IMG/VR virus record: IMGVR_UViG_3300045999_005676
Coordinates: 1 to 36,680 of that record
Source of the DNA: a virus
DNA: 36,680 bases
Reading direction: 5' to 3' (one strand)
Below are positions 4,154 through 32,192 of the stretch, one piece after another. Numbering within the stretch: the stretch's first letter is position 1; each line of letters opens with the position of its first letter. The position numbers and the translations under genes were made by a program. The notes under the pieces were generated by a model, which saw only the letters and a list, made by a program, of their open reading frames with translations, made no database searches and had not been told where the DNA came from.

Positions 4154-4907
4154 CTTTTTTATCCTCATCAATTACAGATTTAATTACTGCCCGAAGCTGG
4201 ACATCCTTTTTGTAGGGCTGTCCGTCCGGGGCGTTCTTCATGGGCTGTTCAATCAGCCACATAAGCCAGCCAAATCCTTCCGATGATCTAGCAATCTGGC
4301 GGACGGTCTGGCCTTTGTATTTGCCAAACCCAACGACCATATCCTTAATCTCGGAGTCCTTGGTTTTCTTTTCCTCAACCAGCTTTGCCGTTATCTCTTT
4401 GATCTCTGCCTTCGAAGGCTCTTCGTATTTCTCGGTATTGAGTTGCTTGGCATCTTCAAAACCACCGAAGGGAACTTCTTCCGCTGGGGTGGTTGAGAGG
4501 TTGCGGTCGATCAATACAACGACATGGGCGAAGGCCGATCGGCAAGCCCGACTGATCGCCCTTGTCTGGCACATTGCCCGCTGTGCATAGGTCGGACGCT
4601 TTGCCCACATATCCTCATCGAAGCCAAGGAATCCCTCGGCGGTTGCGATTGTTTGGCCGTTGTCCATTCGGCGAACTTCGCCAATGCACTTCCAGCCTTC
4701 ATCGGTGCGCTCGACATCCCTTGCCGAAGCTACGCATCCGTGCGCTACTGCAATGGATTGCCAGCCCTCTACCCGAACATAGTCACGATTGCCAATCCGT
4801 TGTGCGGTGGCCTTGACGATTTCTCGGCAAGCCCCCGCAACATCAGTCGCCTGTCGGATATGTTGGGCAACTCCGTTGTTAATTGTTGCTAATTGTGTTT
4901 CGCTCAT
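4137..4907 (-). CDS. SSB-tipped DNA recombination/replication accessory protein
   Basis: This 256-aa protein has three visible parts. Residues about 25-150 (YVRVEGWQSIAVAHGCVASA, then WAKRPTYAQRAMCQTRAISR ACRSAF split by spacing) resemble uncharacterised phage proteins located in recombination modules. Residues about 188-245 (GFGKYKGQTVRQIA, then GWLMWLIEQP) match the short C-terminal module found in exonuclease X-like proteins. The last residues, DEDKKDDIPF, reproduce the acidic tip of bacterial single-stranded-DNA-binding proteins (DDDIPF), known to dock replication and repair partners. ssDNA binding or annealing is inferred; no canonical SSB OB-fold motif was recognised. The ribosome-binding region is AAAGGAACCACACA-ATG. 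Confidence 0.7.
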   Translation of the reverse strand: MSETQLATINNGVAQHIRQATDVAGACREIVKATAQRIGNRDYVRVEGWQSIAVAHGCVASARDVERTDEGWKCIGEVRRMDNGQTIATAEGFLGFDEDMWAKRPTYAQRAMCQTRAISRACRSAFAHVVVLIDRNLSTTPAEEVPFGGFEDAKQLNTEKYEEPSKAEIKEITAKLVEEKKTKDSEIKDMVVGFGKYKGQTVRQIARSSEGFGWLMWLIEQPMKNAPDGQPYKKDVQLRAVIKSVIDEDKKDDIPF

Positions 4908-4931
4908 TGTGTGGTTCCTTTCTTTTTTGGT

Positions 4932-5297
4932 TTACTCGTTAGGAAGTCTTTGGCGGTTGTTATGGAAGGCGATCTCCAAATTTTCTTTGCGGTATTCCCA
5001 ATAGCCGGGAAGCCCGCCGATGAATGATGGCTCATAAGGAACCTTGTTCATTATGCAAAAATATTCCCTATCTAGTTCCTTCTTTAGCCTCTTAAAATGT
5101 CCTTGAGGATTTTCGTGCGCCCATCCGTTGTAGGTCTTGAGCCATTCCGCATTGTCGGATTGTTCCTGTTCACCATCGGTAGCCTTACGATCCGCCCAGC
5201 TATCTTCGACCCGCAAGACCCTTTCTCGCCAATCCACAAATGATTGATGTCGGATATCGTCTGCCTCTTTCTGGTATTCCTCAAAGAAGCTAGCCAT
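4932..5297 (-). CDS. Hypothetical protein, 121 aa
   Basis: Charged, Trp- and Tyr-rich soluble protein (ASFFEEYQKEADDIRHQSFV, WLKTYNGWAHENPQGHFKRL) with no recognised domain. The start ATG has an excellent GGGAGG upstream and overlaps the end of the nuclease-like gene by 8 nt. It lies between the nuclease and the SSB-tipped gene, which suggests a DNA-metabolism context but does not prove it. Confidence 0.7.
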   Translation of the reverse strand: MASFFEEYQKEADDIRHQSFVDWRERVLRVEDSWADRKATDGEQEQSDNAEWLKTYNGWAHENPQGHFKRLKKELDREYFCIMNKVPYEPSFIGGLPGYWEYRKENLEIAFHNNRQRLPNE

Positions 5298-5631
5298 TTT
5301 GGGCCTCCCTCTTTAGGCGCAAATAAGAATCCGATCCACCCCTATAAATTGTTTCGATGATAGGGGTAAGCCATTTGGCCGTGACTTGGTGGGCTGGGAT
5401 TCTGAAAAGCAAGATGCCACGCTCCGAAAGGGCATTATATTTTTCCATATCGGCCATAAAGCCGGAGCCTCTTGTATGTCTGCCCTTCGTCCACACCGAA
5501 CCCTCCACTTCGATTGCTACTCCAGACTCATGCCAGTAGTCAATCCTCCAGCGGCGGGTCGGGTGGAATTTGTATTCCGCTGTGAGCTTCGGGCCGTTCA
5601 ATGCCCGCCAGACAATTTCAAACTTACTCAA
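5290..5631 (-). CDS. PD-(D/E)XK-type (VRR-NUC/DUF559-like) endonuclease
   Basis: The core EYKFHPTRRWRIDYWHESGV, then AIEVEGSVWTKGRHTRGSGF and MADMEKYNALSERGILLFRI, shows the catalytic signature of small PD-(D/E)XK nucleases found in phage replication regions: a D in RIDY, then the E-V-E strand, then a K/Y helix. The R-H-T-R-G motif is typical of that phage subfamily. I place the start at TTG 5631, making a TTGA junction with the upstream stop and having GGGAG at good distance; the open frame continues to a TTG at 5646. A role in resolving or nicking DNA intermediates is inferred from the family. Confidence 0.75.
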   Translation of the reverse strand: MSKFEIVWRALNGPKLTAEYKFHPTRRWRIDYWHESGVAIEVEGSVWTKGRHTRGSGFMADMEKYNALSERGILLFRIPAHQVTAKWLTPIIETIYRGGSDSYLRLKREAQNG

Positions 5632-5837
5632 TTTCGCATCTCCCAAATTGAAGGGTTTCGGCTCTTGGCCTCGGCTTGCTTGGTTTCCTCGGTCGCCTTC
5701 TCCAAGCGATCCAATTCGGCGGCAACCATCAAATAGAATCTTCTCCGCTCATAGTCCCTTTGCTCTAAATATTTGCAAAGCTCTCGGCCTCCAAAGAAAA
5801 TAAACATCACGATAAAAATCAAAAGGGCTTCGATCAT
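5628..5837 (-). CDS. Small membrane-anchored protein, 69 aa
   Basis: ATG 5837 overlaps the ligase-like gene stop (ATGA). Residues 1-20 (MIEALLIFIVMFIFFGGREL) form one membrane helix, followed by a long charged helix (RRRFYLMVAAELDRLEKATE, ETKQAEAKS) that may be coiled coil in the cytoplasm. The shape is like an anchored adaptor, but no family was recognised. Confidence 0.65.
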   Translation of the reverse strand: MIEALLIFIVMFIFFGGRELCKYLEQRDYERRRFYLMVAAELDRLEKATEETKQAEAKSRNPSIWEMRN

Positions 5838-6382
5838 AGAATCCTCCACTTGTGCCAGTCCAGCGAGCAGTAAGAAGGATTCGTGACGAAGGGGTAGCGG
5901 TCATCGTTCTTCATAACAAAGCCTTCCCAAACCAGCCCGCCACGATTCTGGAAATTCATCTCCTCCCAAATGGCCTTGAGCTTTTTGTGATTGAGGCGGG
6001 GCATACGTAGCAGGGCGTTTTGTTTTAGCTCAAAGGATGCGGGTTCGATCTCCTCAAACTCCTTGACCCTCTGAGCATAGGGCTTGGGGTTGTCGGGATC
6101 GAAAGCATCAATCACGATGATAGTTCCGATGCCTTTCTTTTCCCGCATCCCCATAATTTCGCAATCAATAAACCGAGACTTAATCCCCGCAGTTGCCAAA
6201 CGCTCCAAGATCAGCGGGGCGTTGGATGCGATCTTTCCGTGGCGGTTATAGGCTATGCCTTCTTTTTGATCGAACCAGCCTCTCCAACCATTCGCCTTTG
6301 GTTCGATTGCCCACTCGCTGTAAGTCTCCGACCAAGGGGCATCAGCGGCTCCGACTGGTCTTGCAGGGTAATAGGATTTCAT
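5834..6382 (-). CDS. Minimal ATP-dependent DNA-ligase-like nucleotidyltransferase
   Basis: The nucleotidyltransferase motifs of ATP-dependent DNA ligases are visible in order. Motif I is K29-A-N-G-W-R34, with Lys29 the candidate adenylation site. YNRHGK (45-50) fits motif Ia, FIDCEIMG (71-78) motif III, EGFVMK (153-158) motif IV, and a weak WHKWR (176-180) motif V. At 182 aa it stops where the OB-fold would begin, so it is far shorter than usual ligases. Asn replaces the usual Asp in motif I. It could be a stand-alone adenylating domain, an RNA-end or nucleic-acid-modifying homologue, or a decayed ligase. The start is preceded by a GAAATCC sequence at longer spacing. Confidence 0.7.
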   Translation of the reverse strand: MKSYYPARPVGAADAPWSETYSEWAIEPKANGWRGWFDQKEGIAYNRHGKIASNAPLILERLATAGIKSRFIDCEIMGMREKKGIGTIIVIDAFDPDNPKPYAQRVKEFEEIEPASFELKQNALLRMPRLNHKKLKAIWEEMNFQNRGGLVWEGFVMKNDDRYPFVTNPSYCSLDWHKWRIL

Positions 6383-12858: not shown

Positions 12859-14196
12859 TTATTGTGGAACTGCGGACGGGATTTTCTTTGAAAGATCATC
12901 AATGGATTTTTTTAAGGACTCAAAAACTCCGCCAAATGATTCCTTTGGCCCCATCCCCCTAGTTCCTTTCTGCGCCCTAGCACCAGCCGCAACCATCTCT
13001 GGGCTTATCCCGGCTTCTTGTGCCATAACCTTTTGCGCCATTGACGGCATTTCTGCCGCCGCCTGCTGAGCCGCAAGCCTTTTTCTAATGTCTTGTTTTG
13101 TTAGCGTAACACCCTCTTCTGCACTGGCTTTTTTTGCGAGATCGGCAAGAGTGGCCTCACGCAATCTAAAATTCTCTCTAGTTGTTTCGATTTGTTGCCT
13201 TTTTCTTGCAACGGCTAGGGCTTGTTCCCCGGCCCTTCCTTGTAGCAAAAACTCAGCCCCTTCGCCTCCCCTTTGGAATGATTCTTGTTGAGCCTTTTTT
13301 TGCTCTGCCGCTTGTAGCTTTATAAGACTTAGTTGCGCTTGCTTAAGTTTTATATTTTGTTCTGTAATAGAATTTTGGCTTCTATTTATAATTTCAATAT
13401 CCTTAGTTCTGTCTGCAACGCTCCTTAACTCTTTGTCTTGGATTTTCAATAAATTAAGGGTCTCTGCTTCTTGTGTAACAACCTGCTCTGCAAGTGATAT
13501 TTCTTCTGATTTGCCGCTAAGAAATTTTGCCTGTGCGGGATTTTTTGCTTGAAGAATTTTCAAGCTTAAAAGCTCGTCTTTTTGGCTTTGGTCAACAACG
13601 GATAGTTGTTGCGACTGAAATTTGATTAAATTTGAAATTGTTGAAAGTCGCTCTTTTTCTACCTTAAGAAGTTTAACCTCTGCCTCTCCTGCGGCAATAA
13701 GGCCTTCTTCTGGCGCAAGACCAAGATCAGTTTTAAATATACTTTCAAAAGCCCTATTGATTGCCCTTGGAAGGCTAAAACCCTCTGTTTTTTTCTGAAG
13801 CCTATCTATTTCGGATGTGATATTTTCTATTGATGACTGAACTCCCTCAGGGGTTGTTGCCGCAAGCCCAGCCCTAAATGCCTTATCCAAGCTCTTTCCG
13901 CTTGCCTCTGCCTCTCCGGCAATCCTTGTTAGGGCATCACCGAGAGCAATCCCGCCTTTAACAGCCCCAGCACCAAAAAGCCCAAGTCCACCTGTTCTTC
14001 CAATAAGTTGTAATGCCTTTGAAGTGGCAGATGCCTGACTATTGATTGACAATAAGCTTTTTGCCAAACTAGAGGCCGATCGCCCAGATTGATCAAAACT
14101 TCTTGAGGTTGCCTTGGCTTCTCTCTGAATGCCCTTTAGGACGGCAGTTCCCTTCCGTCCGTCAATCTCAATTTCTCCTCTTAATACAAAGGCCAT
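12859..14196 (-). CDS. Tape measure protein, short, 445 aa
   Basis: Helical, Gln/Ala/Lys-rich and repetitive along most of its length (QSISTQ-like segments: IEIINRSQNSITEQNIKLKQ, AQLSLIKLQAAEQKKAQQES). It has a Gly/Ala hydrophobic patch (LGLFGAGAVKGGIALGDALT, about residues 70-90) and a charged start typical of tape measures (GRKGTAVLKGIQREAKATSR). It lies two genes after the frameshifted chaperone, as in lambda (G-T-H). At roughly 0.15 nm per residue the tail would be near 65 nm, short for a siphovirus. A coiled-coil inner-tail protein is the alternative. Confidence 0.75.
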   Translation of the reverse strand: MAFVLRGEIEIDGRKGTAVLKGIQREAKATSRSFDQSGRSASSLAKSLLSINSQASATSKALQLIGRTGGLGLFGAGAVKGGIALGDALTRIAGEAEASGKSLDKAFRAGLAATTPEGVQSSIENITSEIDRLQKKTEGFSLPRAINRAFESIFKTDLGLAPEEGLIAAGEAEVKLLKVEKERLSTISNLIKFQSQQLSVVDQSQKDELLSLKILQAKNPAQAKFLSGKSEEISLAEQVVTQEAETLNLLKIQDKELRSVADRTKDIEIINRSQNSITEQNIKLKQAQLSLIKLQAAEQKKAQQESFQRGGEGAEFLLQGRAGEQALAVARKRQQIETTRENFRLREATLADLAKKASAEEGVTLTKQDIRKRLAAQQAAAEMPSMAQKVMAQEAGISPEMVAAGARAQKGTRGMGPKESFGGVFESLKKSIDDLSKKIPSAVPQ

Positions 14197-14197
14197 T

Positions 14198-14965
14198 TTA
14201 TCTATTTGCCTTGTTAAGAGCCTCTTGTTCCTTGCGCTCTATATATGGGATCATATCTAATTGTTCTTGCTTCAAGGCATCTTGCAAAGCCCTTTGGCCT
14301 ATTTTCCCGGCCCCTTTTGCGGCGTTTACAAATATGGCTTTTATCTTGTCCCCTGCTTGAATTGCCTCAATTCCAAAGCCTTGCCCAGCGCTTCCCTTTA
14401 ATGTCTTAAAGAACTTATCTAATCCTCCCGCAATCTTTATTGTCTGGCCTTTGGCAAGCTGAGAAAAATGCCGAAAGGCTGGCAACCATCCGGCGGCTAT
14501 ATAACCAGAGGACGATCTGGCCCTTTTTACAAATCTTTGGTAAAATGCGCTGGCAGTTCCTCCGCTATTGCCCCTGCCCGGCCCTGCAAAATTCTTTGGA
14601 AATTTGGAATAGAATCCCATTCTCTTACCCCTTTGAAGCCTAAAGTTTGCGATGGCAAAGGCTTCTGCCTTGCCCATATACCCAACCGTTGATTTGCCTT
14701 GCGTGGTTCTTCCCCCTTTGCCAAGTGCAACTGATTCGCCCTTTCTTTTCGTCACCTTCACATAAGAGGCCATCACGGTTTCAATAGCCTTCATATCCCT
14801 AACGATTTGATCTGGGCTTGCCCTAGGAGTAAGATTTGCCGCCCTAGCACAAATATTTGCCGCTCTTCGGTTTAATTCATTTACTCTTTCTCTACGAGAA
14901 AGCTCAAGGTATTTGTCTATCGTCTGATTGAATTCAGTTGCGTCTAGTTTAAAAATGGTTGCCAT
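14198..14965 (-). CDS. Tail protein between chaperone and tape measure, 255 aa
   Basis: Basic, mostly helical N-terminus (DKYLELSRRERVNELNRRAA, CARAANLTPRASPDQIVRDM) and central Gly/Lys-rich region (VALGKGGRTTQGKSTVGYMG). It resembles anonymous tail-completion/minor-tail proteins (gpZ or gp10-like type) in which N-terminal RRxxNELNRRAA-type helices occur. Starts 3 nt after the T-frame stop. Function by position only. Confidence 0.65.
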   Translation of the reverse strand: MATIFKLDATEFNQTIDKYLELSRRERVNELNRRAANICARAANLTPRASPDQIVRDMKAIETVMASYVKVTKRKGESVALGKGGRTTQGKSTVGYMGKAEAFAIANFRLQRGKRMGFYSKFPKNFAGPGRGNSGGTASAFYQRFVKRARSSSGYIAAGWLPAFRHFSQLAKGQTIKIAGGLDKFFKTLKGSAGQGFGIEAIQAGDKIKAIFVNAAKGAGKIGQRALQDALKQEQLDMIPYIERKEQEALNKANR

Positions 14966-14968
14966 ATA

Positions 14969-15546
14969 TTATCTTAAAATATTATCTATAATTTTATCGG
15001 CATTTTGTGTTCGCCTTTTAACATCTATTCCCTTGTTAATTAAGATGGCGTGCTCAAGTTGGAATAACTCTGCCTCGCCCATCTCCCATAAGACATAATC
15101 CTTGTTCCAGCCAAACTCCTTGGCAAAGAGCCAGACGGTTGCCGCTACTCCGCCGGGCTGTTCTATTTTGGGTCTCCACCCCCATCCTTGGCGACAACCC
15201 TAGAGTCTGAAATTTCCTTAAAAACTTCTTCCACAATCTTAACTGCTTCAATAAAATCCTCCTCTACAAAGGGATCGGCCCAATCCAATACAGCGCACCT
15301 AAATTTGTTCTTATCCCACCCAAGCTCAACCAGCTTTTCTTTTTTGGTCATAAGGCAAAATAAGGTGCTCCAAATAAAAAACTCGGTGGAGTCACTTTCT
15401 TCCCTTACTTGATTAAGAATGATTCTATGCCCAAGTGTGAACTTATTTAGTTTCTGCCCTTTAAATTGCCTTTCTCCAAGTGCAAAAGTTTTGTCTAAAT
15501 TCTTATTTAATGCCTCATCGTCTTTTACAAAATCTAGGTCGTTCAT
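14969..15546 (-). CDS. Tail assembly chaperone gpGT-type -1 frameshift fusion
   Basis: The G frame (15163-15546) runs to ...GGGDPK and stops at TAG (15163-15165). Directly before it sits the slippery heptamer CCCAAAA (15166-15172), which fits X-XXY-YYZ in the G frame. A -1 shift continues in an open frame of 65 more residues (IEQPGGVAATVWLFAKEFGW, NKDYVLWEMGEAELFQLEHA) to TAA at 14969, just before the next gene. This is the organisation of lambda G/T. The 192-aa fusion would be made in smaller amount than G and chaperone the tape measure and tail tube. The T part has no plausible start of its own. Confidence 0.85.
15163..15546 (-). CDS. Tail assembly chaperone gpG-type protein, 127 aa
   Basis: Non-shifted product of the frameshift gene pair. 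Acidic, helical protein (DEALNKNLDKTFALGERQFK, LNKFTLGHRIILNQVREESD, LFCLMTKKEKLVELGWDKNK). Ends GGGDPK immediately after the slippery site. ATG overlaps the preceding stop (ATGA). Position before the tape measure gene is that of gpG in lambda-like phages. Confidence 0.8.
   Translation of the reverse strand: MNDLDFVKDDEALNKNLDKTFALGERQFKGQKLNKFTLGHRIILNQVREESDSTEFFIWSTLFCLMTKKEKLVELGWDKNKFRCAVLDWADPFVEEDFIEAVKIVEEVFKEISDSRVVAKDGGGDPK
15166..15172 (-). promoter_or_regulatory. -1 ribosomal frameshift slippery heptamer
   Basis: CCCAAAA on the minus strand, read C-CCA-AAA in the zero frame and followed at once by TAG. Both P- and A-site tRNAs can re-pair after a one-base slip (CCC, AAA). The adjacent stop codon could promote pausing. 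No strong downstream hairpin was recognised by eye. Confidence 0.85.
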
Positions 15547-15932
15547 AGATATTTACTTATCCTTTTCTTTAGGTCAGGGCTGGCGTTTTTGCTGATGAGA
15601 AGGGTAGCCTTCCCAAAGCTCTTTTTGACCAAGGGCGTTGCGTTGTTCATTGCATCTAAAAGCCTTTCCCTGTTTTCTAGAACGGCTCGCATATAAGCCA
15701 GCGGCTCTTCCGGGTCTTTGATGGCTTCCCAGCCCCTCTCCCAAACATTAACAATTTTTCCGCCAAGACCATCTGCCGTATCACTAAAGAAAAAGGTTAC
15801 GCTCCTTTGATTGTTTTTATCCGCATCCTCAACAACGGAAAAAGGACGCTCTTTTCTAAATGGAATGCCAAGCGTAGCTAGGACTGAAGCGAGTTTTAGA
15901 TTTTTAGTAAAAAGGATTTTTTCTTGGCTCAT
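15543..15932 (-). CDS. Tail-region hypothetical protein, 129 aa
   Basis: Soluble protein with NLKLASVLATLGIPFRKERP and FFFSDTADGLGGKIVNVWER, a Trp-containing core and a basic C-terminal helix (SPDLKKRISKYL). ATG is preceded by a GAAATCC start-associated sequence (15935-15941), and the stop overlaps the chaperone start (ATGA). Lies where phages place tail-tube-associated or chaperone genes. Function unknown. Confidence 0.65.
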   Translation of the reverse strand: MSQEKILFTKNLKLASVLATLGIPFRKERPFSVVEDADKNNQRSVTFFFSDTADGLGGKIVNVWERGWEAIKDPEEPLAYMRAVLENRERLLDAMNNATPLVKKSFGKATLLISKNASPDLKKRISKYL

Positions 15933-15951: not shown

Positions 15952-16305
15952 TTAGGCTATTCCATCGTAGATGACTGCGCTGTAGCTGACCTGCTCAAAA
16001 TTGTCTGCACTTCTTGTTCGGGTGATTTCAGTCACATAAGCCGCCCCCGAAAGGCCAAATGTTTCGCCTCCGGCAACGGTGATGTCTGTTCCTACGGAAT
16101 CAGAAAAAGTGGTATAAGCCCCTTCAACGGTATAGGTCACACGCTTGTTGCGAAACACCACAGAAGTTGTGTCGCCAGACCTGTTCTTTAGCTCAACGGC
16201 ATCGGAGGAATTTGCGTGGGTGATGGACTGAACGACCATCCCTGTTTGTGCGTCTGCAACGCCAAAGGCTAGATCGGTCGAATTTCCAATAATTGTTGCT
16301 GGCAT
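15952..16305 (-). CDS. Tail tube-like protein paralogue B, 117 aa
   Basis: Beta-rich (MPATIIGNSTDLAFGVADAQ, VELKNRSGDTTSVVFRNKRV, FGLSGAAYVTEITRTRSADN). Clear relative of the adjacent gene at 16310-16660: both start with a (T)IG-ST--(F)G pattern, then TG-VVQ, a central VVF/AVAFSNKK strand and a terminal T(R)SADNF/TSDGF strand. Size and content fit a small tube- or decoration-type tail protein. Only 4 nt separates the pair. Confidence 0.65.
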   Translation of the reverse strand: MPATIIGNSTDLAFGVADAQTGMVVQSITHANSSDAVELKNRSGDTTSVVFRNKRVTYTVEGAYTTFSDSVGTDITVAGGETFGLSGAAYVTEITRTRSADNFEQVSYSAVIYDGIA

Positions 16306-16309
16306 AAAA

Positions 16310-16660
16310 TTAGGTGCTTAAGAACGGAAACTTGGTTGCAGAAATATCAAACGAATTAAATCCATCCGATGTTTCCGTATAACTCGTGTCTGTTACATGG
16401 TAGGTTCCAGAACAAACGGCAGTTGCGTTGGCCGCAAGGGTAAGGGATGCCCCAACGCTTCCTATTGAATCATTACAATTTCCAGATAGGCTTACATTTA
16501 TCTTTTTATTAGAAAACGCAACTGCTGAAAAGGTTCCGTCATGCTTTGAAATTTCAGTTGTTTCAGCAGTTTCAGTTGAGGTAAAATTCTGAACAACAAC
16601 GCCAGTTTCAGCGGAAAGCCCAAAGACTACCGTGGAAAGACCAATAGAAGTTGCGGCCAT
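16310..16660 (-). CDS. Tail tube-like protein paralogue A, 116 aa
   Basis: Paralogue of the next gene, sharing layout (IGLSTVVFGLSAETGVVVQN; ISKHDGTFSAVAFSNKKINV; TETSDGFNSFDISATKF). Starts after AAGGAATATCTT and a TTGACA 18 nt upstream. Being the first of the pair with strong start signals, it may be the more abundant tube subunit. The assignment as tail tube is by size, beta content and position only. Confidence 0.65.
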   Translation of the reverse strand: MAATSIGLSTVVFGLSAETGVVVQNFTSTETAETTEISKHDGTFSAVAFSNKKINVSLSGNCNDSIGSVGASLTLAANATAVCSGTYHVTDTSYTETSDGFNSFDISATKFPFLST

Positions 16661-20060: not shown

Positions 20061-20744
20061 TCAATCCATCCTTATAAGCCCCTCAAACAATGGAACATTG
20101 TCTGATTCAAACTCTCCTTTTTGCCCCCAAAATTTGCTTTCCTTTCCCCGCCTTACCGTAGAGGCCAAAATGATAGGAGATGAGTTAATCGCCCAGAATT
20201 GGTCTGCGTCCCTTATAGCCTTAGCCATTTGTTCAACGCTTGGAGCCGTATAGGTAGCAAGCCCCTCAATGCGGATATCTCTTGGACAAAGAACAATGAT
20301 ATTATCTTTACCCAATTCCTTTGCCGCCTCTTGAATGATTTTAAGTGGGCTATGCTGTGTGTTTTGAGAAATTCCAAAAGGGGCAATCAGATGATACTTT
20401 TCTGGAAGTCCTTCCGCTTTTTCTTCCCCAAGCCTGTCCAGAATAATGTTTGTTTTGTCTGCGTCTTTGATCCTTGGGTCTGAATAAACAAAATCAGTCC
20501 AAGTCTTTCTGCTCTTTCTGTAATCAATATATTTATTAGGCCATACCTCAAGATCAATAATATCTGCATTGAATGGGATTGCTCCCATTGGCTTCGTATA
20601 AGATACAATATCAAACACTCCATAATATTGCTCGAAACAATCAAACAAAACCTCATGGCCTTGGTCGGCTAGATATTTACAGGCGGGGAGGCATCGAAGA
20701 ACATCGCCCAGCCTTTGTTGGTATTTTATGACTTTAGGTTGCAT
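20061..20744 (-). CDS. GT9/heptosyltransferase-like protein, 227 aa
   Basis: ATG 20744 overlaps the upstream gene by 11 nt with GGTGGAC ahead. The fold pattern is that of GT-B heptosyltransferase-like enzymes: K-x-QQRLGDVLRCLPACKYLA at the N-terminus, a strand/turn (HLIAPFGISQNTQHSPLKII) in the middle, and a C-terminal QMAKAIRDADQFWAINSS then PIILASTVR, which corresponds to the donor-binding S-P region. At 227 aa it is shorter than full GT9 enzymes, so it may be a reduced version. Substrate unknown. Confidence 0.65.
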   Translation of the reverse strand: MQPKVIKYQQRLGDVLRCLPACKYLADQGHEVLFDCFEQYYGVFDIVSYTKPMGAIPFNADIIDLEVWPNKYIDYRKSRKTWTDFVYSDPRIKDADKTNIILDRLGEEKAEGLPEKYHLIAPFGISQNTQHSPLKIIQEAAKELGKDNIIVLCPRDIRIEGLATYTAPSVEQMAKAIRDADQFWAINSSPIILASTVRRGKESKFWGQKGEFESDNVPLFEGLIRMD

Positions 20745-21501
20745 CGTCCACCACGCTTCGGTCTTGGACATGGGCAAAATATCTATTCAGCCGAACAGGG
20801 CCGTGGGTCTTTTGTAATTCTTCCCAAGATTTTAGAAGTCCGGCATAGCCATAAAAACTTTCCTTAAATTCGACTTGTTGGCGGACAGAGTAGGCGAAGT
20901 GGTCAAACACGAGCCCCATCTCCTCTGTGATTCCTCTTGGGATTCTGATGGGCTGATGGTTCAAGATGGGCGGTTCATGGCTGGTAAAATGAATACCCTC
21001 TCCCCATTTCCAAGCTCGATACCACTCATAAGGGTAAGAGCCTAGCCCGCTTCGGCTAACCACAACCTTTTTACCTATGTGATAGTTGCAATGAAATTGC
21101 GCGGTCACTCCGGGGGTGCGGTCTTTTAGCAAATCATAAACCGCCGTCATCTGCTCTGTAGTCCAGAATTCATCAGCGTCTTGCTCCATCACTACACCGC
21201 AATCCACTCCCTCAAGAGCTTTGTTCACCATTTCAATCTTTCCGTTAAAGGGCTTATTCTGGGAATAGATTTTTACCTTATCGTGTTTTAGATTTTTTAG
21301 ATATTCATGCGTTCCGTCTATGGATCGAAATTCCTTGTGCCATTTGTCTGGGACTTGCTTACACCATCTTGTGCAGTTGGTCGGCTGGCTTACGCCCTCG
21401 ACAATCTGCCATTGCCAAGGAATTTGTAGCTTTTGGTAGGCTTCTATCTTTTTGCTTATGAATGGCTCACCATTTAGCACTATCGTGAATATGGTCAGCA
21501 T
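20734..21501 (-). CDS. GT-A-type glycosyltransferase-like protein, 255 aa
   Basis: Begins MLTIFTIVLNGEPFISKKIE, the opening of family-2-like glycosyltransferases. The segment VVMEQDADEFWTTEQM contains the D-A-D metal/donor motif at about residues 107-109. Later GYAGLLKSWEELQ fits an acceptor-side helix region. No membrane helix, so a soluble cytoplasmic enzyme. GGAG precedes the ATG; it overlaps the epimerase gene by 7 nt. Confidence 0.75.
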   Translation of the reverse strand: MLTIFTIVLNGEPFISKKIEAYQKLQIPWQWQIVEGVSQPTNCTRWCKQVPDKWHKEFRSIDGTHEYLKNLKHDKVKIYSQNKPFNGKIEMVNKALEGVDCGVVMEQDADEFWTTEQMTAVYDLLKDRTPGVTAQFHCNYHIGKKVVVSRSGLGSYPYEWYRAWKWGEGIHFTSHEPPILNHQPIRIPRGITEEMGLVFDHFAYSVRQQVEFKESFYGYAGLLKSWEELQKTHGPVRLNRYFAHVQDRSVVDDAT

Positions 21502-22379
21502 CTTAATATCTCCTCAAAAATCTGCATTTTTGTAATTGCAGGTTCCCAGCCCCATGTTTTTTTTGCAAGAGAATTATCTAGAACAATTTCCTTCATATCC
21601 ATTTTTCTCTGTTCAAAGTAATTTACTTTTCTTTTGCCAAGCCTTTCTCTGCAAAAATCAGAAAGCTCGTTTAATGTAAAGGAGTTGTTGATTCCACCAG
21701 AAACATTGCAAAGTGTTTTTCCTCTTGCAAAAGACGCTTTTGCTACTAGCGGGATAAGGTCTTTGGGGTGAAAAACATCTCTTTTTTGATTGCCTCCAAA
21801 CCCATAAATATTCATTTCTTTTTTATGTTTCCATGAGTTAATCCAATAGGATATAATGCCTTGGTCGCTCTTGCCAAATTGCCCTGCCCCGGCCATAAGC
21901 CCGCATCGGAAAATGTGGCTTGGGAAATCAAATTCGCTAATTATCAATTCTGATGCATATTTAGAGGCTCCATAATGGCTTCTTTTCCCGACCATTGAAC
22001 AATTTTCTGTTATAGGGGATATTGACTCAAGCGGGTAAACTCTGCTTGATGAAATATATATCAAAGTTGCACCCCATTCTTTTGCAAGCTGACATATTTT
22101 GACGGTTCCCCACAAATTTGAACTATAAACGGTTTCGGGGGCTATTTCGTTATATCCCGCCATCACGCTTGGATTGGCCGCACAATGAATTATTACATCG
22201 TGAGGCTCTTTCTCATGAAAATTCTGAACATCGCAAATAAATAACTTTCTTCCTTGCTTTCTAAAAATTTCTGCATTTTGAGATGTTCCTTCTCTTGATA
22301 GATTGTCCAAAAGGGTCGCGTTTTTGAAATAGTTGGAAATGATGAATCCGACAAATCCACAAGCTCCTGTTATGAGCAT
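21495..22379 (-). CDS. NAD-dependent epimerase/dehydratase (extended SDR)
   Basis: Short-chain dehydrogenase signature: LITGACGFVGFIISN (GxxGxxG) at the N-terminus, then CAANPSV for the NAD pocket and Y-G-A-S-K-Y (YxxxK) at about residue 142, with S-S-S upstream. DVFHPKDLIPLVAKA and FTLNELSDFCRERLGKRKVN fit the substrate domain of nucleotide-sugar enzymes. Likely makes or modifies a nucleotide sugar for the cassette's glycosyltransferases. ATG 22379 has GGGGGG just upstream. About 294 aa, normal for the family. Confidence 0.85.
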   Translation of the reverse strand: MLITGACGFVGFIISNYFKNATLLDNLSREGTSQNAEIFRKQGRKLFICDVQNFHEKEPHDVIIHCAANPSVMAGYNEIAPETVYSSNLWGTVKICQLAKEWGATLIYISSSRVYPLESISPITENCSMVGKRSHYGASKYASELIISEFDFPSHIFRCGLMAGAGQFGKSDQGIISYWINSWKHKKEMNIYGFGGNQKRDVFHPKDLIPLVAKASFARGKTLCNVSGGINNSFTLNELSDFCRERLGKRKVNYFEQRKMDMKEIVLDNSLAKKTWGWEPAITKMQIFEEILRC

Positions 22380-23008
22380 ATATCCCCCCATTCTTCTTTT
22401 GCCACCGCAACATCAAGCGAGCCATCTTTTCTAATTGTATCGAAAAGGGCGGAGGTTCTTTTGATTGGCAATGGATGAATGGCGTAGGCCAAAAAAGTTT
22501 CTGGATGAAAAATTCCGCCCCTTGAAATATATTCGTCCAATCTTGCAAATCTGTTGAAGTAGGCATCCATCCAGCATCTTTTCCCAAAGGCAAATCTGTC
22601 GTTATATCCCCAGTAATTGCAAAACTTGGGGATATAAATTGCGTCATCTTGGGGTTCTTCGGGAAGTATTCTGAATGCCAAATCCGGCCTCAACCTAACA
22701 ACGCAATCCGCATCAATGCCGCTTTTGTCGAAAATTTGCCAAACTCTTTGCATTGCCCAAAGTTGCCGAAGAACGCTTTGGATGCCGTGACAACCCCTGC
22801 CAATTTGCCAAGCATATTCCCTTTTCTCATCAATATAAGGCTGTTCCTCGATAACAAGAATATTCGGATTGAGCAAAAACGCTTTTTCGGCATCCTCATC
22901 TTTTGCGGCGTGTATTACCCAAGAGGCTTCTGGATACAGGCTTTTTAATTGTTTTGCGGTCTTGTCCAAGCTCCGCATCTGCCCAGAAACAAGGACTGCG
23001 GTTTTCAA
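22370..23008 (-). CDS. Glycosyltransferase-like protein, 212 aa
   Basis: The sequence VVRLRPDLAFRI near position 104, after the AVLVSGQMRSLDKTAKQLKS start, is characteristic of a group of glycan-related phage and bacterial proteins with an (R/M)RPDL core. A Cys-Trp-rich middle (CNYWGYNDRFAFGKRCWMDA) and EHIHP-like C-terminal segment (ETFLAYAIHPL) follow. The start is TTG 23008, overlapping the radical SAM stop (TTGA), with the overlap to the epimerase being 10 nt. Donor and acceptor are not predictable. Confidence 0.6.
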   Translation of the reverse strand: MKTAVLVSGQMRSLDKTAKQLKSLYPEASWVIHAAKDEDAEKAFLLNPNILVIEEQPYIDEKREYAWQIGRGCHGIQSVLRQLWAMQRVWQIFDKSGIDADCVVRLRPDLAFRILPEEPQDDAIYIPKFCNYWGYNDRFAFGKRCWMDAYFNRFARLDEYISRGGIFHPETFLAYAIHPLPIKRTSALFDTIRKDGSLDVAVAKEEWGDICS

Positions 23009-24309
23009 GATGTTTTTAATTCCTGCACCAATGCCTTAAACTTCTTATGCCCATCTGATTCGAGAATATAGGAATCATCAATTTTTGCCCCATCGTATTT
23101 TTCGAGATGCCCTTCTTTGCGAAGTGTCGCCAGCGGGGTTCCCTCGATTTCCGCCGTGCCGGATAATTGATAAGAGTCGAACGGAAGGCTTTTGATGAAT
23201 TTGATTGTTTCCTGTCTTTGTTCTGCCGTTTCGCCGGGAAGCCCGACCGTGAATGTTCCGTGAACAGTCATTCCGATTTCCTTAAGATGCCGAACAACTC
23301 CGGCTCCCTCATCAAGATTAAGATGCTTGTTCACGATATGATCCACAACATATTGGCTCCCAGACTCGAATCCTAGTTTTACCCCAAAGCATCCAGAATC
23401 CTTCATAATTTTCCAAGTCTCAATCGGGATGGTGTCCGCCCTGCACATGGCAGACCAAGGGAGTCCTATCTTGCCCATAATCTCGCACATTTCTAGGGTG
23501 TGCTTATTCCCAAGGTTAAAGGTATCATCATCAAAATAGATGCTTTTGAATGGGAATCTTTTGATGAGATAACCCAAGAAATTCTCCATATATTCTGGCG
23601 TGTAATAGCGGACGGTTCTTTTGCCTTTCCCATCTGGGTCGTTCCCGGTCATGGCCGCAGGCCAAACACAAAAGATGCACTTGAAAGGGCAACCTCTCGA
23701 TGCCCAGACTTGGGCGTGAGGAAATTTTTGCCCCCTTGGTTGATGGTCGCAATAATGATCCCAGCATTCGATGGGATATTCTGGGAAGGGTGCTTCGTTC
23801 ATTTCCTTTTGGCTTAAAAGTTCGGCTTCAATCACCCCGCCCTTTTCGACTGCCCTTAAAACCCCTTTTTCATATTCGCCCTTAACCACGGCAAAAACGC
23901 CTTTCTTTTCAATAATTTCCTGCGGGGACACCGCCGAGATTGTGCCTGTTAGGATTATCTTTATGTCGGGAAGAATCCTTTTGATTTCTTGGATGACTTT
24001 TTGATCATGCGCCCAGCTTGGCGTGGCGGTTTCAATGACAAGAAATTCCGGGTCTGTTTTTTTAAGCCACGCAAAATAGGACTGATAGGATTCCCTAGTG
24101 GCAATCGAGTCCCGAAGCTCTGCCTTGTGTCCGGCCTTCCTTGCGTAGCTTGTTGCATATCCCATAAAGAATGGGAATGGTATGTATTCTCCGAATTGAA
24201 AATTGTCGGGGCGATTGAATTGGGCTGTATATGTGTGCGGCCAGCGGGAGCCAGCCCTAACCCCGCAAACATTATTCTCCCACCACGGAGGATTTGAAAA
24301 GACAATCAT
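23005..24309 (-). CDS. Radical SAM enzyme with cobalamin-binding-like domain
   Basis: Cys207-x3-Cys211-x2-Cys214 (RGCPFKCIFC) is the radical SAM [4Fe-4S] site. The N-terminal 45-165 region has the Rossmann-like pattern of B12-binding domains (FMGYATSYARKAGHKAELRD, then FLVIETATPS, IILTGTISAVSPQEI). The His of the usual DxHxxG is absent (DSIAT), so a base-off ligand is not confirmed. C-terminal GLPGETAEQRQETIKFIKSL is typical of these enzymes. Members of this class methylate or rearrange unreactive carbon atoms. Here the context is a glycan cassette between capsid and tail genes. ATG overlaps the methyltransferase stop (ATGA). Confidence 0.85.
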   Translation of the reverse strand: MIVFSNPPWWENNVCGVRAGSRWPHTYTAQFNRPDNFQFGEYIPFPFFMGYATSYARKAGHKAELRDSIATRESYQSYFAWLKKTDPEFLVIETATPSWAHDQKVIQEIKRILPDIKIILTGTISAVSPQEIIEKKGVFAVVKGEYEKGVLRAVEKGGVIEAELLSQKEMNEAPFPEYPIECWDHYCDHQPRGQKFPHAQVWASRGCPFKCIFCVWPAAMTGNDPDGKGKRTVRYYTPEYMENFLGYLIKRFPFKSIYFDDDTFNLGNKHTLEMCEIMGKIGLPWSAMCRADTIPIETWKIMKDSGCFGVKLGFESGSQYVVDHIVNKHLNLDEGAGVVRHLKEIGMTVHGTFTVGLPGETAEQRQETIKFIKSLPFDSYQLSGTAEIEGTPLATLRKEGHLEKYDGAKIDDSYILESDGHKKFKALVQELKTS

Positions 24310-24905
24310 TTCCTAAAAATGGCAGAGCCATTCCTCCAAGATTGCGACTCCCATAAAACAGGATGTCCCGCTGTTTTCAGCCATTGGTAATTGCCGTGAT
24401 TCTTAATATCATTCACATCATCCAAGGCTATGATTCCTCCCTCCTTGACCTTCGGAAAGAAAACCATAAAATCCGCCCTTCCAGAAAACACTCCGCCATC
24501 CAGCAAAAGAAAGTCAATCTCATCTTTTAGGCTGATGTGTCCCCAAATATATTTAGACGCGACCCTAAATTCTTCCTTATGCCATTCAATAATTTGCTCA
24601 AGGGGATATTGATTCAGCTTGGTTTGGGTGGTTCTATAAAAATCCTCGACTTGCGATATGCTCATCCAAAGCATCGGATTGCTGGAAAGCTGGTTAATGG
24701 CAAGCCCTCCCTGCCGTGAATCAAGGTTATATTTGTGGCGGCCTATGCGGTCGGGATGAATCTCAAAGCTAAATAATTCCCTTGTTCTAATACATTGAGT
24801 TGAGCCGTCCCCGGTTCCTCCCCCTATCTCAACTCCAAGGGCAAGCCCCTCGCTGTATTTTGCTAGGGCTTGGCCGAATGGGTCTTGAATGGTTATTTCT
24901 TGCAT
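24306..24905 (-). CDS. SAM-dependent methyltransferase, class I, 199 aa
   Basis: The SAM-binding strand-loop LALGVEIGGGTGDGSTQCI (about residues 21-39) is motif I of class I methyltransferases. FLLLDGGVFSGRADF, then PKVKEGGIIALDDVNDI, give motif IV/VI-like strands including D-x-x-G and the C-terminal ALDDV, as in methyltransferase_24-type small-molecule and O-methyltransferases. It may methylate a sugar. Overlaps upstream by 13 nt and downstream by ATGA. Confidence 0.75.
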   Translation of the reverse strand: MQEITIQDPFGQALAKYSEGLALGVEIGGGTGDGSTQCIRTRELFSFEIHPDRIGRHKYNLDSRQGGLAINQLSSNPMLWMSISQVEDFYRTTQTKLNQYPLEQIIEWHKEEFRVASKYIWGHISLKDEIDFLLLDGGVFSGRADFMVFFPKVKEGGIIALDDVNDIKNHGNYQWLKTAGHPVLWESQSWRNGSAIFRK

Positions 24906-25174
24906 TTTGGTTTTGCCGAATTTTTTAAGGCATGAACAATCACATAGTTAATGACTGCTTCCTTGTCCTTGGCAAGCAATTTTATCCCAATCCTATAAAG
25001 TTCTTTCCCTGCCTTTTCGTCATACTCAATATCAACAAGCACATATTTGGTTTTGTCTGGGCGCGATTTGCCAAATTTAATCATACCAAGCCCATTGGTA
25101 TCCTCGCCTTTTTTGGCTGGCCTAATTCCAATTTGCGGCTTTTCTTTTCTCATAAATGGCTTTGCCCTTTTCAT
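24893..25174 (-). CDS. Small basic hypothetical protein, 93 aa
   Basis: The ATG at 25174 (GGAG upstream) overlaps the glycosyltransferase gene by 53 nt. A shorter start at 25153 is possible. Very Lys-rich (KRAKPFMRKEKPQIGIRPAK) with a beta/helix core (YVLVDIEYDEKAGKELYRIG; KDKEAVINYVIVHALK). The end NSAKPKCKK is positively charged. No recognised domain; possibly a nucleic-acid or glycan-binding partner. Confidence 0.55.
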   Translation of the reverse strand: MKRAKPFMRKEKPQIGIRPAKKGEDTNGLGMIKFGKSRPDKTKYVLVDIEYDEKAGKELYRIGIKLLAKDKEAVINYVIVHALKNSAKPKCKK

Positions 25175-26783
25175 AAAACTCCGGCTTGTTGTGATGTTTG
25201 ATTAGATCATCCGGCTTCCCGCCTGTAAAGAGCGGGTTCTCATGCTTGAATTGAATATGCTTGGCCTCAATCACAACTCCATCACCATAAGCTCTTTCTG
25301 TAAATTCATTGTCTGAATAGATGCCATCGCTCTCTTGGTATTCGGGGTGGAACATATAACCCCCTTGTTTTTCAAGCCTCTTTTGCGTCATAATCGCCAT
25401 ACAAAGGAGTTTATCGGTTCTAAGCCCATCAGATATTGCCAAGACTTTCTCCTCGTTTGTAGCCCCAATAGCGGTCGAAATTAGAGCATCCCAATGTCTA
25501 GGCGGACTCCAATCGTCCGACATTTGAACCAGAATATCTCCTTTCGCCATTTTTGCCCCATAATTCCAAGCGTTGACGATCCCGCCGGGTTTGCATCGGA
25601 TGGCTTGATGGGGAGTGTAATCTTGGGGATCATCGTGATCCACCACAAAAATCCACTCAACCTCAAGAGGGCTTTTTGCCAACATCAGCCATTGTTGCCT
25701 TCGTTGCCAAGCAATCTGTGGCCTCCCCTTGGTTGCATGAATGATTGAGATTTTGGGGGCTGGCCTTGACTTCTTAATCTTTTCGGCTTCCTCTTTTTTG
25801 CCGACACAAACAGAGGCAGTTTCATAAATATCCAAACATTGCCATTGGTATATTGCCTCAACTAGGTTCCAGTAATGGGCGGTTGGCCTTGGTAGGCTCA
25901 TCGCCGCCCTTGCCGCTCCCCATGCCTTTACCCATTGTCCCCTTGCAGAGTATTCAACCGCCATCCAATAGTGAGCTTCCCTTCGATCCGGCTGAATGGC
26001 GATAGCCTCCCCAAGATATTTTAGCTTTTCCTCGCCTGTCGGGGCGCATCTTCCCATGTTGCAAAGAACATCGTATCGAAGCGTATCCTCTAGCTCTTGA
26101 AATTGAATTGCCAGCTTACCATACTTTAAGCAGTCCGCCCAATTCTGGGTTAAAAAATGCTCTTGTTGGGTATAGTAAAGGGCGTTGGGGGTTGGATCTA
26201 GGGTGTCTTTAAGAATTTCAAAGTTCCTGTCGGCGGAAGTCTTTTTGTAGCCCTTGGGATTGTGAACCCTAACCACCTTGTCGATTCCAAAAATCTTTGA
26301 CTGATCCTCGGCTACAAGCATTTCGTGAACCCGATTCTTCCACTTGCATTTTCCTTTTAAGGAAACCATCTCCCTTAGTGGGATCAACCCAGCGTTAGCC
26401 ACGAAATACCTAAACGCAATAAGCTGTGCGCCCCTTTCCTCTGCCTTAGTTATAGCTTCATCAATAACCGCCTCTGCCCCCGGTTGCATCTCATCATCGG
26501 CATCCACCCACATTGCCCACTTCTCGGAACAAGCATCCAAGGCCGTGTTCCTTGCGGCGGCAAAGTCATCTATATGAGGCCAATCCGTTCTTTGATTCTT
26601 ATAATGAACAACTCTAGCACCGTGAGCCAGTGCAACTTTTTCCTCCTCGGCTGTCGGATTGCTCCCCCCAGCCAAGCAAACAACAAACTCCTTCGCAATG
26701 GGCTTGAAGGAGCTAAGGCATCTTTCGAGATATTCGGCTTCATTGCCGCCACAAATAAGGTAAACAGACAGAGGATTTCTCAT
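25122..26783 (-). CDS. Two-module glycosyltransferase with central helical repeats, 553 aa
   Basis: The N-terminal 1-210 region is a GT2-type domain (SVYLICGGNEAEYLERCLSS, and WAMWVDADDEMQPG holding D94-A-D96). Residues about 210-330 look like TPR-type helices (NALYYTQQEHFLTQNWADCL, CLKYGKLAIQFQELEDTLRY, REAHYWMAVEYSARGQWVKA). The C-terminal part starts ISIIHATKGRPQIAWQRRQQ and includes DILVQMSDDWSPP, so a second GT-A-like module. ATG 26783 is preceded by GAAATCCTTT and TTGACA 23 nt upstream. First gene of the cassette, just after the terminator. Confidence 0.75.
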   Translation of the reverse strand: MRNPLSVYLICGGNEAEYLERCLSSFKPIAKEFVVCLAGGSNPTAEEEKVALAHGARVVHYKNQRTDWPHIDDFAAARNTALDACSEKWAMWVDADDEMQPGAEAVIDEAITKAEERGAQLIAFRYFVANAGLIPLREMVSLKGKCKWKNRVHEMLVAEDQSKIFGIDKVVRVHNPKGYKKTSADRNFEILKDTLDPTPNALYYTQQEHFLTQNWADCLKYGKLAIQFQELEDTLRYDVLCNMGRCAPTGEEKLKYLGEAIAIQPDRREAHYWMAVEYSARGQWVKAWGAARAAMSLPRPTAHYWNLVEAIYQWQCLDIYETASVCVGKKEEAEKIKKSRPAPKISIIHATKGRPQIAWQRRQQWLMLAKSPLEVEWIFVVDHDDPQDYTPHQAIRCKPGGIVNAWNYGAKMAKGDILVQMSDDWSPPRHWDALISTAIGATNEEKVLAISDGLRTDKLLCMAIMTQKRLEKQGGYMFHPEYQESDGIYSDNEFTERAYGDGVVIEAKHIQFKHENPLFTGGKPDDLIKHHNKPEFYEKGKAIYEKRKAANWN

Positions 26784-26826
26784 AAAGGATTTCAAGATGG
26801 GATTTATGTCAATTCATAAAAGAAAG

Positions 26827-29396: not shown

Positions 29397-32192
29397 TCAA
29401 AGAAGGTCGCCGTCTGCCTTGCGATAGGATTCTTTGACCTCTCCACCGCCAGCCATCTTTAGAAACTTGTTCACCCTAGCCATCGCCCAAGCGTTGCGTG
29501 AGTTGGGCTTACCCCCGGTAATCGTTGGCCTAAAGCTAGTGGAGAACGCACCCGCCCCCCTGCGAAACACTTTCTTTAATGCTCCAAGGGTGGGGGCTTT
29601 CCTTGTGGGGTGCTTGTCCTTGAACTCGGCAATCTTGTTCTTCAATGCTTCCTCGTTCTCGGCTGAAATCTCTATGTCGCCAGCTTTGCTTCTGGTGGAT
29701 GCTGTTCCTTCTGGGTTCTCCTTGGAGCCTTTGATTCGCTCCTTGGGAGGTGCGGGAGTTTGTGCCGCAGACTTGGGGCCGGGTCGGGCTAGTTCCTTTG
29801 CCTTCTCATCAGTCATTGGGCCACCCACAATCCAAGCGTCACAAGTTCTTTTGGCCGCACATTTAAAATCAAAAATCTCGCAGTAACCTAGATTGCCACC
29901 AATAGCGACTTCATTTGCATCCTCGCCGATGCCCTTCTTAATACACCCAAGAACTTTGCTCCTCTGGTCAAAGGCCGCACAATTACCGCAAAGCATTTTC
30001 TTGGCTGTGCCTACATCGCCTTGGAACTCGTCTGCCTTGGCTTTCCAGTAATCTTCGTTTGGCTCGTTAGGATTGGCTGGGCCGTAGTTCGCATCGTCCA
30101 CCGCTGTCTGCCTATTGGCTAGATTGGTTTTGATGTCTTGAGTTGCGATTGGGCAAGAGGCTGGTTCTGCTAGTTCTTTCTTGTCCCTTGCTTCCATCTG
30201 CCCAACCACTTTCCTTGCCCAAGCATAACCAGCATCACCACCCCATCCGTGCCACGCTTGCCATCCCTTGCCCTGTTCGTCCCAAGTTGCACCTTTCTTA
30301 TCGACTTCATGGCGATCAAAGAAGGCTTTCATTCTGCGGACGGTATCTGGGGAGAGGTTCACACCATTCATTAAATCCCTTGCTCTGGAGATGCCGACCG
30401 GGGTCATTCCCCTTTGGCTTGCTGGCTTGCCTTCCCTCACATCCAAAGCTCTTTTAGCCGCATCCCTAGCTCCTTGTGGGGGCGTGAAGTCTATCCCATC
30501 GTATTTCCCTAGCTCGATACCGCCCATCATCCCTTGAATCAGCATCTTAATAGATGCGGGGTCTAGCTTTGCTAATACCTCTTCAGTATCTTTTTTTTTA
30601 ACTTCTAAATTTTCCGAAGAAGGCTCAATCGGTTCATCTGGTTCTGGAGCATTGTCTGGTTCCTCGCCATCGTCTTGTTCGTCCTCATCGGGTTTCGGTG
30701 CTGGTTGTGGCTTTGGTGCTGGGGCGGCTGGAACTGGTTTTTCTGGCGGGACAACATCGCTGATTGTCTCTGGGGGAACGCCATATTCTTTAGCCAAGTC
30801 TTGAATTGCCTTGGCCTCGATTGCCCTTTGACGCATCGAAGCCTCCCAATCGGCTCCACGCTCTGCGTAGATGTCGGAGCCTGTGCGAAGCCCGCTCTTA
30901 AATTCTGCGATGGCACTTGCAGATTCCCGCCCAAGATCAATCGAGACATTCGCCCCGAAATTGAAGATGCCTCTAGTAGTTTTCCCGCCCTCGCTCGTTT
31001 GGATCATTCCCCTAGCAACTGCGTCTGCAATTACAATGTTCTTGATGGGGCGAAGCACCTTGTCATTCAAAAGATTCTGGTAGCGTTTGAAGGTGCGCCC
31101 TGCCTGTTGCATTTCTAGGCGAGCAGTTGGGCCGGACATGGCAGAAGGATCAACCGCAAAGGAATATGGGATTCCAAGTCCAAGACAGATATTCCGCATT
31201 AGAACTTTGTGAAACTCGATAAACGCTCCGCTAGGACGACTTGGGCCGTTGGGGAAAATAATATCCTCGCCCGGTTCTAGGTAGGAAATTTTGCCAGACT
31301 CAATCGTTTCTAGCTTGATCTGATTCCCGCTAATGTCCTCTTCGGTTGAAAGCGTGGAAAGGTCGGCGGCATTGTTGTTGTTGCGCTTTACGATCCCGCT
31401 CTGGGAGCTTGCAACCTTGGCCGCCATCTTTTCAAAGCTGGTAAGTTCGTGAATGTCGGTTGCATCATTGATGGCAGTGTGGAATGCTGAAACTCCCCGA
31501 TATTGGTCGATCCGAAGTGGATCAAAAAGGTGGAAGGCTTGGCTTGAGGGAATGGTGATTTGGTAGCTATAAAAATCCCCGATGCTTCGGTTGTAAATAT
31601 CGTAAGCCGTGGGTGCACCTGTGTTGCGATCGATATGGATTCCGCCGATAAGCTCTAGGCTGGTATAAACTTTAAAAGGGTCACCAAGTCGGTCGGCCTC
31701 AATGCCTTGGATTTTTAGATCGCCATTGGAATCACGAACCAAAACAAAAAGGAAGTCACCATCCCGCAACATCGACATAACCGCCACTTGCATAAGGGTT
31801 GATCCTGTATGCCTTGTGGAGATATCGCACTTGTCCCACCATTCGTTCCAATAGGCTTCGACATCGGTGTTTACTTGCGGATTCTGCGTCCTTGCTTGGT
31901 AGCTGATGGTTCCCGCAACATGACCTGCAAACTTCAAAAGGATTGAGCGAACCAAGCCGACATTCTCGGCCAAGTCCCTCGCCCGCTTCATCAACTCTAC
32001 ACGATCATAGTTGGAGCGATAATCTTCAGCCCCAGAAAGTGAGCTTGGCCCCTTGCGCTCCCGGCTATATTTTACGGCATCATATTCGAAGTTCTTGAGC
32101 TTCTGGCGGGCAAGAAGGCGATCCACCGCTCCCTGCGGATTGACGAAGGCAATAGCCTTGTCGATCAGATTCAATTCGGCCTTTTTCTTCAT
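29397..32192 (-). CDS. Portal protein (lambda family) with long multi-domain C-terminus, 931 aa
   Basis: Residues 1-480 are a lambda-type portal (SLSGAEDYRSNYDRVELMKR, DGDFLFVLVRDSNG, IPYSFAVDPSAMSGPTARLE, QQAGRTFKRYQNLLNDKVLR). A Pro/Asp/Glu-rich linker (485-530) follows. Residues 565-670 hold PPQGARDAAKRALDVREG, then SPDTVRRMKAFFDRHEVDKK and GWGGDAGYAWARKVVGQME, a module common in marine and freshwater phage proteins. Cys735, 738, 750, 771, 778, 784 form a zinc- or cluster-type site. The last 60 residues (KKVFRRGAGAFSTSFRP, NSRNAWAMARVNKFLKMA) match another phage-only small domain. Lambda B is about 530 aa. ATGA junction with the gpW-like gene. Confidence 0.85.
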   Translation of the reverse strand: MKKKAELNLIDKAIAFVNPQGAVDRLLARQKLKNFEYDAVKYSRERKGPSSLSGAEDYRSNYDRVELMKRARDLAENVGLVRSILLKFAGHVAGTISYQARTQNPQVNTDVEAYWNEWWDKCDISTRHTGSTLMQVAVMSMLRDGDFLFVLVRDSNGDLKIQGIEADRLGDPFKVYTSLELIGGIHIDRNTGAPTAYDIYNRSIGDFYSYQITIPSSQAFHLFDPLRIDQYRGVSAFHTAINDATDIHELTSFEKMAAKVASSQSGIVKRNNNNAADLSTLSTEEDISGNQIKLETIESGKISYLEPGEDIIFPNGPSRPSGAFIEFHKVLMRNICLGLGIPYSFAVDPSAMSGPTARLEMQQAGRTFKRYQNLLNDKVLRPIKNIVIADAVARGMIQTSEGGKTTRGIFNFGANVSIDLGRESASAIAEFKSGLRTGSDIYAERGADWEASMRQRAIEAKAIQDLAKEYGVPPETISDVVPPEKPVPAAPAPKPQPAPKPDEDEQDDGEEPDNAPEPDEPIEPSSENLEVKKKDTEEVLAKLDPASIKMLIQGMMGGIELGKYDGIDFTPPQGARDAAKRALDVREGKPASQRGMTPVGISRARDLMNGVNLSPDTVRRMKAFFDRHEVDKKGATWDEQGKGWQAWHGWGGDAGYAWARKVVGQMEARDKKELAEPASCPIATQDIKTNLANRQTAVDDANYGPANPNEPNEDYWKAKADEFQGDVGTAKKMLCGNCAAFDQRSKVLGCIKKGIGEDANEVAIGGNLGYCEIFDFKCAAKRTCDAWIVGGPMTDEKAKELARPGPKSAAQTPAPPKERIKGSKENPEGTASTRSKAGDIEISAENEEALKNKIAEFKDKHPTRKAPTLGALKKVFRRGAGAFSTSFRPTITGGKPNSRNAWAMARVNKFLKMAGGGEVKESYRKADGDLL

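Follow-up and report, generated by a model that had tools for sequence, protein, structure and literature searches.

A probable programmed −1 frameshift at a conserved CCCAAAA heptamer in a putative tail-assembly-chaperone gene of uncultured phages

Introduction

Does a small gene in the tail region of an uncultured phage encode one protein or two? The gene lies in IMG/VR record IMGVR_UViG_3300045999_005676, of which positions 1 to 36,680 (36,680 nt) form the window analyzed here. In tailed phages, the G/GT frameshift known from lambda is widely conserved and is the usual route to tail-assembly chaperones (PMC5009743). A sequence-only reading of the window had proposed a programmed −1 frameshift of this type, with a different slippery heptamer and with a stop codon directly behind it. 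Judging from the comparison of related sequences, the gene almost certainly makes a short and a longer protein through a −1 slip at CCCAAAA. Furthermore, we consider it highly probable that programmed −1 ribosomal frameshifting yields two tail-assembly chaperones from this one gene.

Results and discussion

Anatomy of the overlapping frames

All features of the window given below are on the minus strand. The G frame (15163–15546) starts with an ATG at 15546–15544, encodes a zero-frame protein of 127 aa in 127 codons, and ends with GGA GAC CCA AAA TAG. The slippery heptamer, C_CCA_AAA, is found at 15166–15172, and the zero-frame stop TAG (15163–15165) abuts it. In the −1 direction, the T frame (14969–15172) reads CCC AAA and then ATA GAA CAG, and stays open for 65 codons past the heptamer, until a TAA at 14971–14969. 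The next gene starts at 14965, three bases past the T-frame end at 14969. The predicted GT fusion has 192 aa, composed of the 127 codons of G and the 65 added codons, and its G–T junction peptide contains GGGDPKIEQPGG. When the minus strand was reread, the end of G and its coordinates proved to be as first described, and so did the claim that a one-base slip opens 65 codons which terminate just before the next gene.

The presence of the motif alone is weak evidence and proves nothing, because CCCAAAA occurs at chance frequency in the window (14 matches, compared with 14.7 expected). With the downstream bases shuffled, the −1 frame stayed open in 0.95% of the trials.

Conservation among relatives

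The comparative set consisted of 32 sequences, the window and 31 IMG/VR loci, which contain 27 distinct fusions and form nine clusters at 85% nucleotide identity. The number of relatives retrieved from IMG/VR grew from six, with the fusion as query, to eight with an alignment, and to 31 with an alignment of G. A search with the T alignment independently gave 32 loci, nearly all of them on the contigs found with the G alignment. The close relatives of the fusion are uncultured phages only. Against named phages, tblastn of the fusion gave one chance match (E 0.5), and a scan of the GTDB genomes with the fusion gave no match. For the terminase, the GTDB genomes returned only matches of 30–35%, in alphaproteobacterial genomes.

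The CCCAAAA heptamer is identical and in the same X_XXY_YYZ register in 32/32 sequences, and this comparative evidence is decisive in indicating that it is not there by chance. Its conservation goes beyond the needs of the protein. In 72 columns, the 27 distinct sequences share one degenerate amino acid, but only four of these columns are also invariant at the codon level, and two of the four are the adjacent CCA (Pro) and AAA (Lys) of the heptamer. Elsewhere in G, AAA accounts for only 38% of the Lys codons. Past the heptamer, the −1 frame is constrained as a coding sequence: the T proteins of the relatives are 57–99% identical to that of the window, and most substitutions fall on T-frame third positions (125 vs. 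55 and 39). As NG86 dN/dS was saturated for most pairs, constraint was judged from codon-position counts and codon invariance. The programmed −1 frameshift of the G/GT type, as first proposed, is strongly supported by this conservation.

The same data bear on simpler explanations of the split frame. A sequencing error or a decayed gene would be suggested by the split itself and by nothing else, and is refuted by the relatives: the identical split is present in the 31 other contigs, with both parts under protein-level constraint, which leaves this explanation a negligible probability. Transcriptional slippage was rejected, because the run of A is only four bases long. In several relatives, a −1-frame stop is located 9–30 nt upstream of the heptamer, so that the slip must take place at or very near the heptamer, the only plausible site.

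Another route to T would be its synthesis as a separate protein by termination and reinitiation, for example at the AUA that overlaps the stop (AUAG), with the help of the Shine-Dalgarno-like stretch found upstream. Both elements are present, the overlapping AUA even in 32/32 sequences, but AUA is a poor start codon, and the Shine-Dalgarno-like stretch is about 15 nt away from it. An ATG, GTG or TTG near the T start is absent in nearly all sequences. Usually, no start codon appears in T before codon 26–30, with the exception of a GTG at codon 8 in one relative (L019), and in another (L020) there is none anywhere in T. Moreover, reinitiation offers no reason for the invariant CCCAAAA. We therefore regard it as very improbable.

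Proposed mechanism and possible stimulators

In programmed frameshifting at this site, most ribosomes would read C CCA AAA and terminate at the UAG, releasing the 127-aa G. We infer that, in a minority, tRNA-Pro and tRNA-Lys re-pair on CCC AAA, which takes the ribosome back by one base. These ribosomes would then translate 65 more codons and produce GT, the fusion of 192 aa. An anti-Shine-Dalgarno-complementary stretch upstream and a hairpin about 6 nt downstream probably promote the slip.

The upstream candidate is a purine-rich stretch at 15174–15189, which the alignment places about 9 nt away from the heptamer, and which doubles as code for a Gly-rich linker. Its pairing with the anti-Shine-Dalgarno amounts to −9.3 to −11.6 kcal/mol in 27/27 distinct sequences, and it ranks among the strongest 0–9% of positions in each gene. 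The candidate hairpin (15129–15159) begins 6 nt past the heptamer in the window, and 4–7 nt past it in 10/10 representatives, with 90% of cells paired. In these ten representatives it belongs to the most stable 0.7–4.5% of the 40-nt windows of each gene, and it contains one compensatory pair; compared with dinucleotide shuffles, its stability was no greater. Both elements recur in the relatives and are likely, though unproven, stimulators.

The adjacent stop codon

The TAG directly follows the heptamer in 29/32 sequences. The other three (L021–L023) form a single lineage, whose stop is displaced downstream by one codon (CAA TAA). In every lineage, the displaced one too, a T-frame ATA (Ile) codon forms the stop. 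The persistence of the adjacent stop is compatible both with selection and with inheritance combined with T-frame constraint.

The sequence-only reading had further suggested that the adjacent stop could stimulate slipping. This idea is not supported, given the three relatives with the later stop, and given that a stop at the equivalent HIV position lowers −1 frameshifting (PMC4373837). Placed directly after the HIV heptamer, a stop cut frameshifting in bacterial as well as in human systems, with the release factor competing with slipping (PMC4373837). Natural stops directly after the heptamer do occur in the Rous sarcoma and barley yellow dwarf viruses (PMC4373837). The likeness to our phage is confined to this position, as both are eukaryotic RNA viruses whose genes, heptamers and stimulators differ from those of the phage. 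A selected role can still be imagined, in which the stop fused to the heptamer is part of the signal, with the UAG in the A site while the P- and E-site tRNAs slip. Competition with release factor 1 would then determine the G:GT ratio, which would vary with the RF1 activity of the host. We consider such a selected signal unlikely; a release-factor-sensitive G:GT ratio is possible, but not supported.

Genomic neighborhood and identity of the products

Family matches identify the terminase, the portal, the head–tail adaptor and the major capsid among the genes of the phage. The portal gene (29397–32192) has 931 codons, of which only residues 3–511, approximately, match portal families. For residues 563–670 the match is to another PHROG, of unknown function, which suggests a fused C-terminal part. 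The structural region also contains sugar and cofactor genes in one block (20061–26795), located between the gene of the major capsid and the tail genes, with two family 2 glycosyltransferases, an NAD epimerase, a B12-binding radical SAM protein and unassigned ORFs.

The neighbors of G/GT were placed by position. In order, they are two tube-like paralogues, a 129-aa gene, G/GT, an extra gene and a tape-measure-like gene. The 129-aa gene (15543–15932), just upstream, overlaps the G start in an ATGA, and its place in the gene order is conserved. Ahead of it, two tandem paralogous genes of 117 and 116 aa (15952–16660), tail-tube-like by position, are 34% identical to each other, and have only a weak match to the PHROG “major tail protein” (E 0.1). 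These two paralogues, at 15952–16305 and 16310–16660, remain adjacent in the relatives that were examined. On the other side of T, gene order places a 255-aa gene (14198–14965) before a 445-aa gene (12859–14196), which is, by position and length only, a probable short tape measure protein. In the relatives, T is followed by a gene of 233–267 aa (two genes in some), and then by a gene of 430–485 aa at the tape-measure position.

The slot that separates T from the tape-measure-like gene (14198–14965 in the window) holds differing, apparently unrelated proteins across the relatives. An additional gene of 247–249 aa is present in the same slot in L036 and L046 (about 4575–6029). Possibly, this slot is a swap point inside the tail operon.

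Searches of Pfam and PHROG with G, T and the tape-measure-like protein gave no family match, those with neighboring genes gave no usable one, and sequence and fold searches of the PDB gave no confident match to any named protein. A fold search of BFVD matched G to one uncharacterized phage protein, A0A6J5S158 (TM 0.71, E 0.0019). In hhalign comparisons, T aligned weakly with lambda T (E 0.035, probability 1.5%), in the corresponding region directly behind the slip site, and no homology was seen between G and lambda G (E 0.47). Structure predictions of moderate confidence show both G and T as small and helical.

The slip could extend some other virion protein instead of a tail-assembly chaperone, as it does for the head and tail proteins of Lactobacillus phage A2, which uses CCCAAAA for this purpose. 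This would agree with the lack of homology to known chaperones in Pfam, PHROG and the lambda profile comparison. However, the small helical predictions for G and T do not resemble capsid or tube folds, and the position, directly preceded by the tube-like genes and with the tape-measure-like gene downstream, fits a G/GT pair. An extension of another virion protein is thus quite improbable, and by gene order G and GT are most likely a tail-assembly-chaperone pair. We infer this chaperone function from gene order and architecture, and not from homology.

Comparison with known frameshift systems

The likeness to lambda G/GT first proposed for this locus is one of architecture: a −1 slip near the end of G, a T extension that reaches the next gene, and tube-like and tape-measure-like flanks. 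The two arrangements are similar but not identical. In contrast to lambda, T and the tape-measure-like gene are separated by a 255-aa gene (by two genes in some relatives), the heptamer is CCCAAAA instead of GGGAAAG, and the stop follows it after 0 nt instead of 15 nt. By analogy of architecture, the G/GT of the window would work like that of lambda, while its G and T are not demonstrable homologues of the lambda proteins.

The heptamer had been taken as another slippery sequence, which is correct in that it differs from lambda GGGAAAG, yet it is already known, from A2 orf5 and orf10 and from gene G of Vibrio phage HY01. In Escherichia coli, C_CC.A_AA.A gives frameshifting above 0.10% without stimulators (PMC4066793). 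In A2, −1 frameshifting at orf5 and orf10 is established (PMC5009743), and both sites, taken from the A2 genome record, have CCCAAAA in the same register, with a stop within one codon. They differ from our site in that the slips extend the major proteins of head and tail rather than a chaperone, and the stop comes one codon later. Gene G of HY01 carries an in-register CCCAAAA with a TAA one codon on, and a lambda T homologue is next. This locus is related to lambda T by sequence, unlike the T of the window, and its G is annotated only as hypothetical. In the HY01 locus (L083), this lambda-type G gene is found at 110–592, with CCCAAAA one codon before the TAA, and it probably carries an unannotated frameshift. 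CCCAAAA was also encountered in papers on Burkholderia phages, where it occurs only in the ribosome-binding-site column; this candidate was rejected.

Conclusions

The site is not new in kind, as CCCAAAA has already been measured in E. coli and is present in A2 and HY01. The understanding of phage tail frameshifting is unchanged by this solid but ordinary case. What it does provide is a reliable annotation, a predicted 192-aa GT fusion, for a group of uncultured phages with tail genes that lack family matches. Furthermore, it offers a conserved example of a stop codon directly on the heptamer, with which one could examine whether the frameshift ratio of a phage is determined by release factors.
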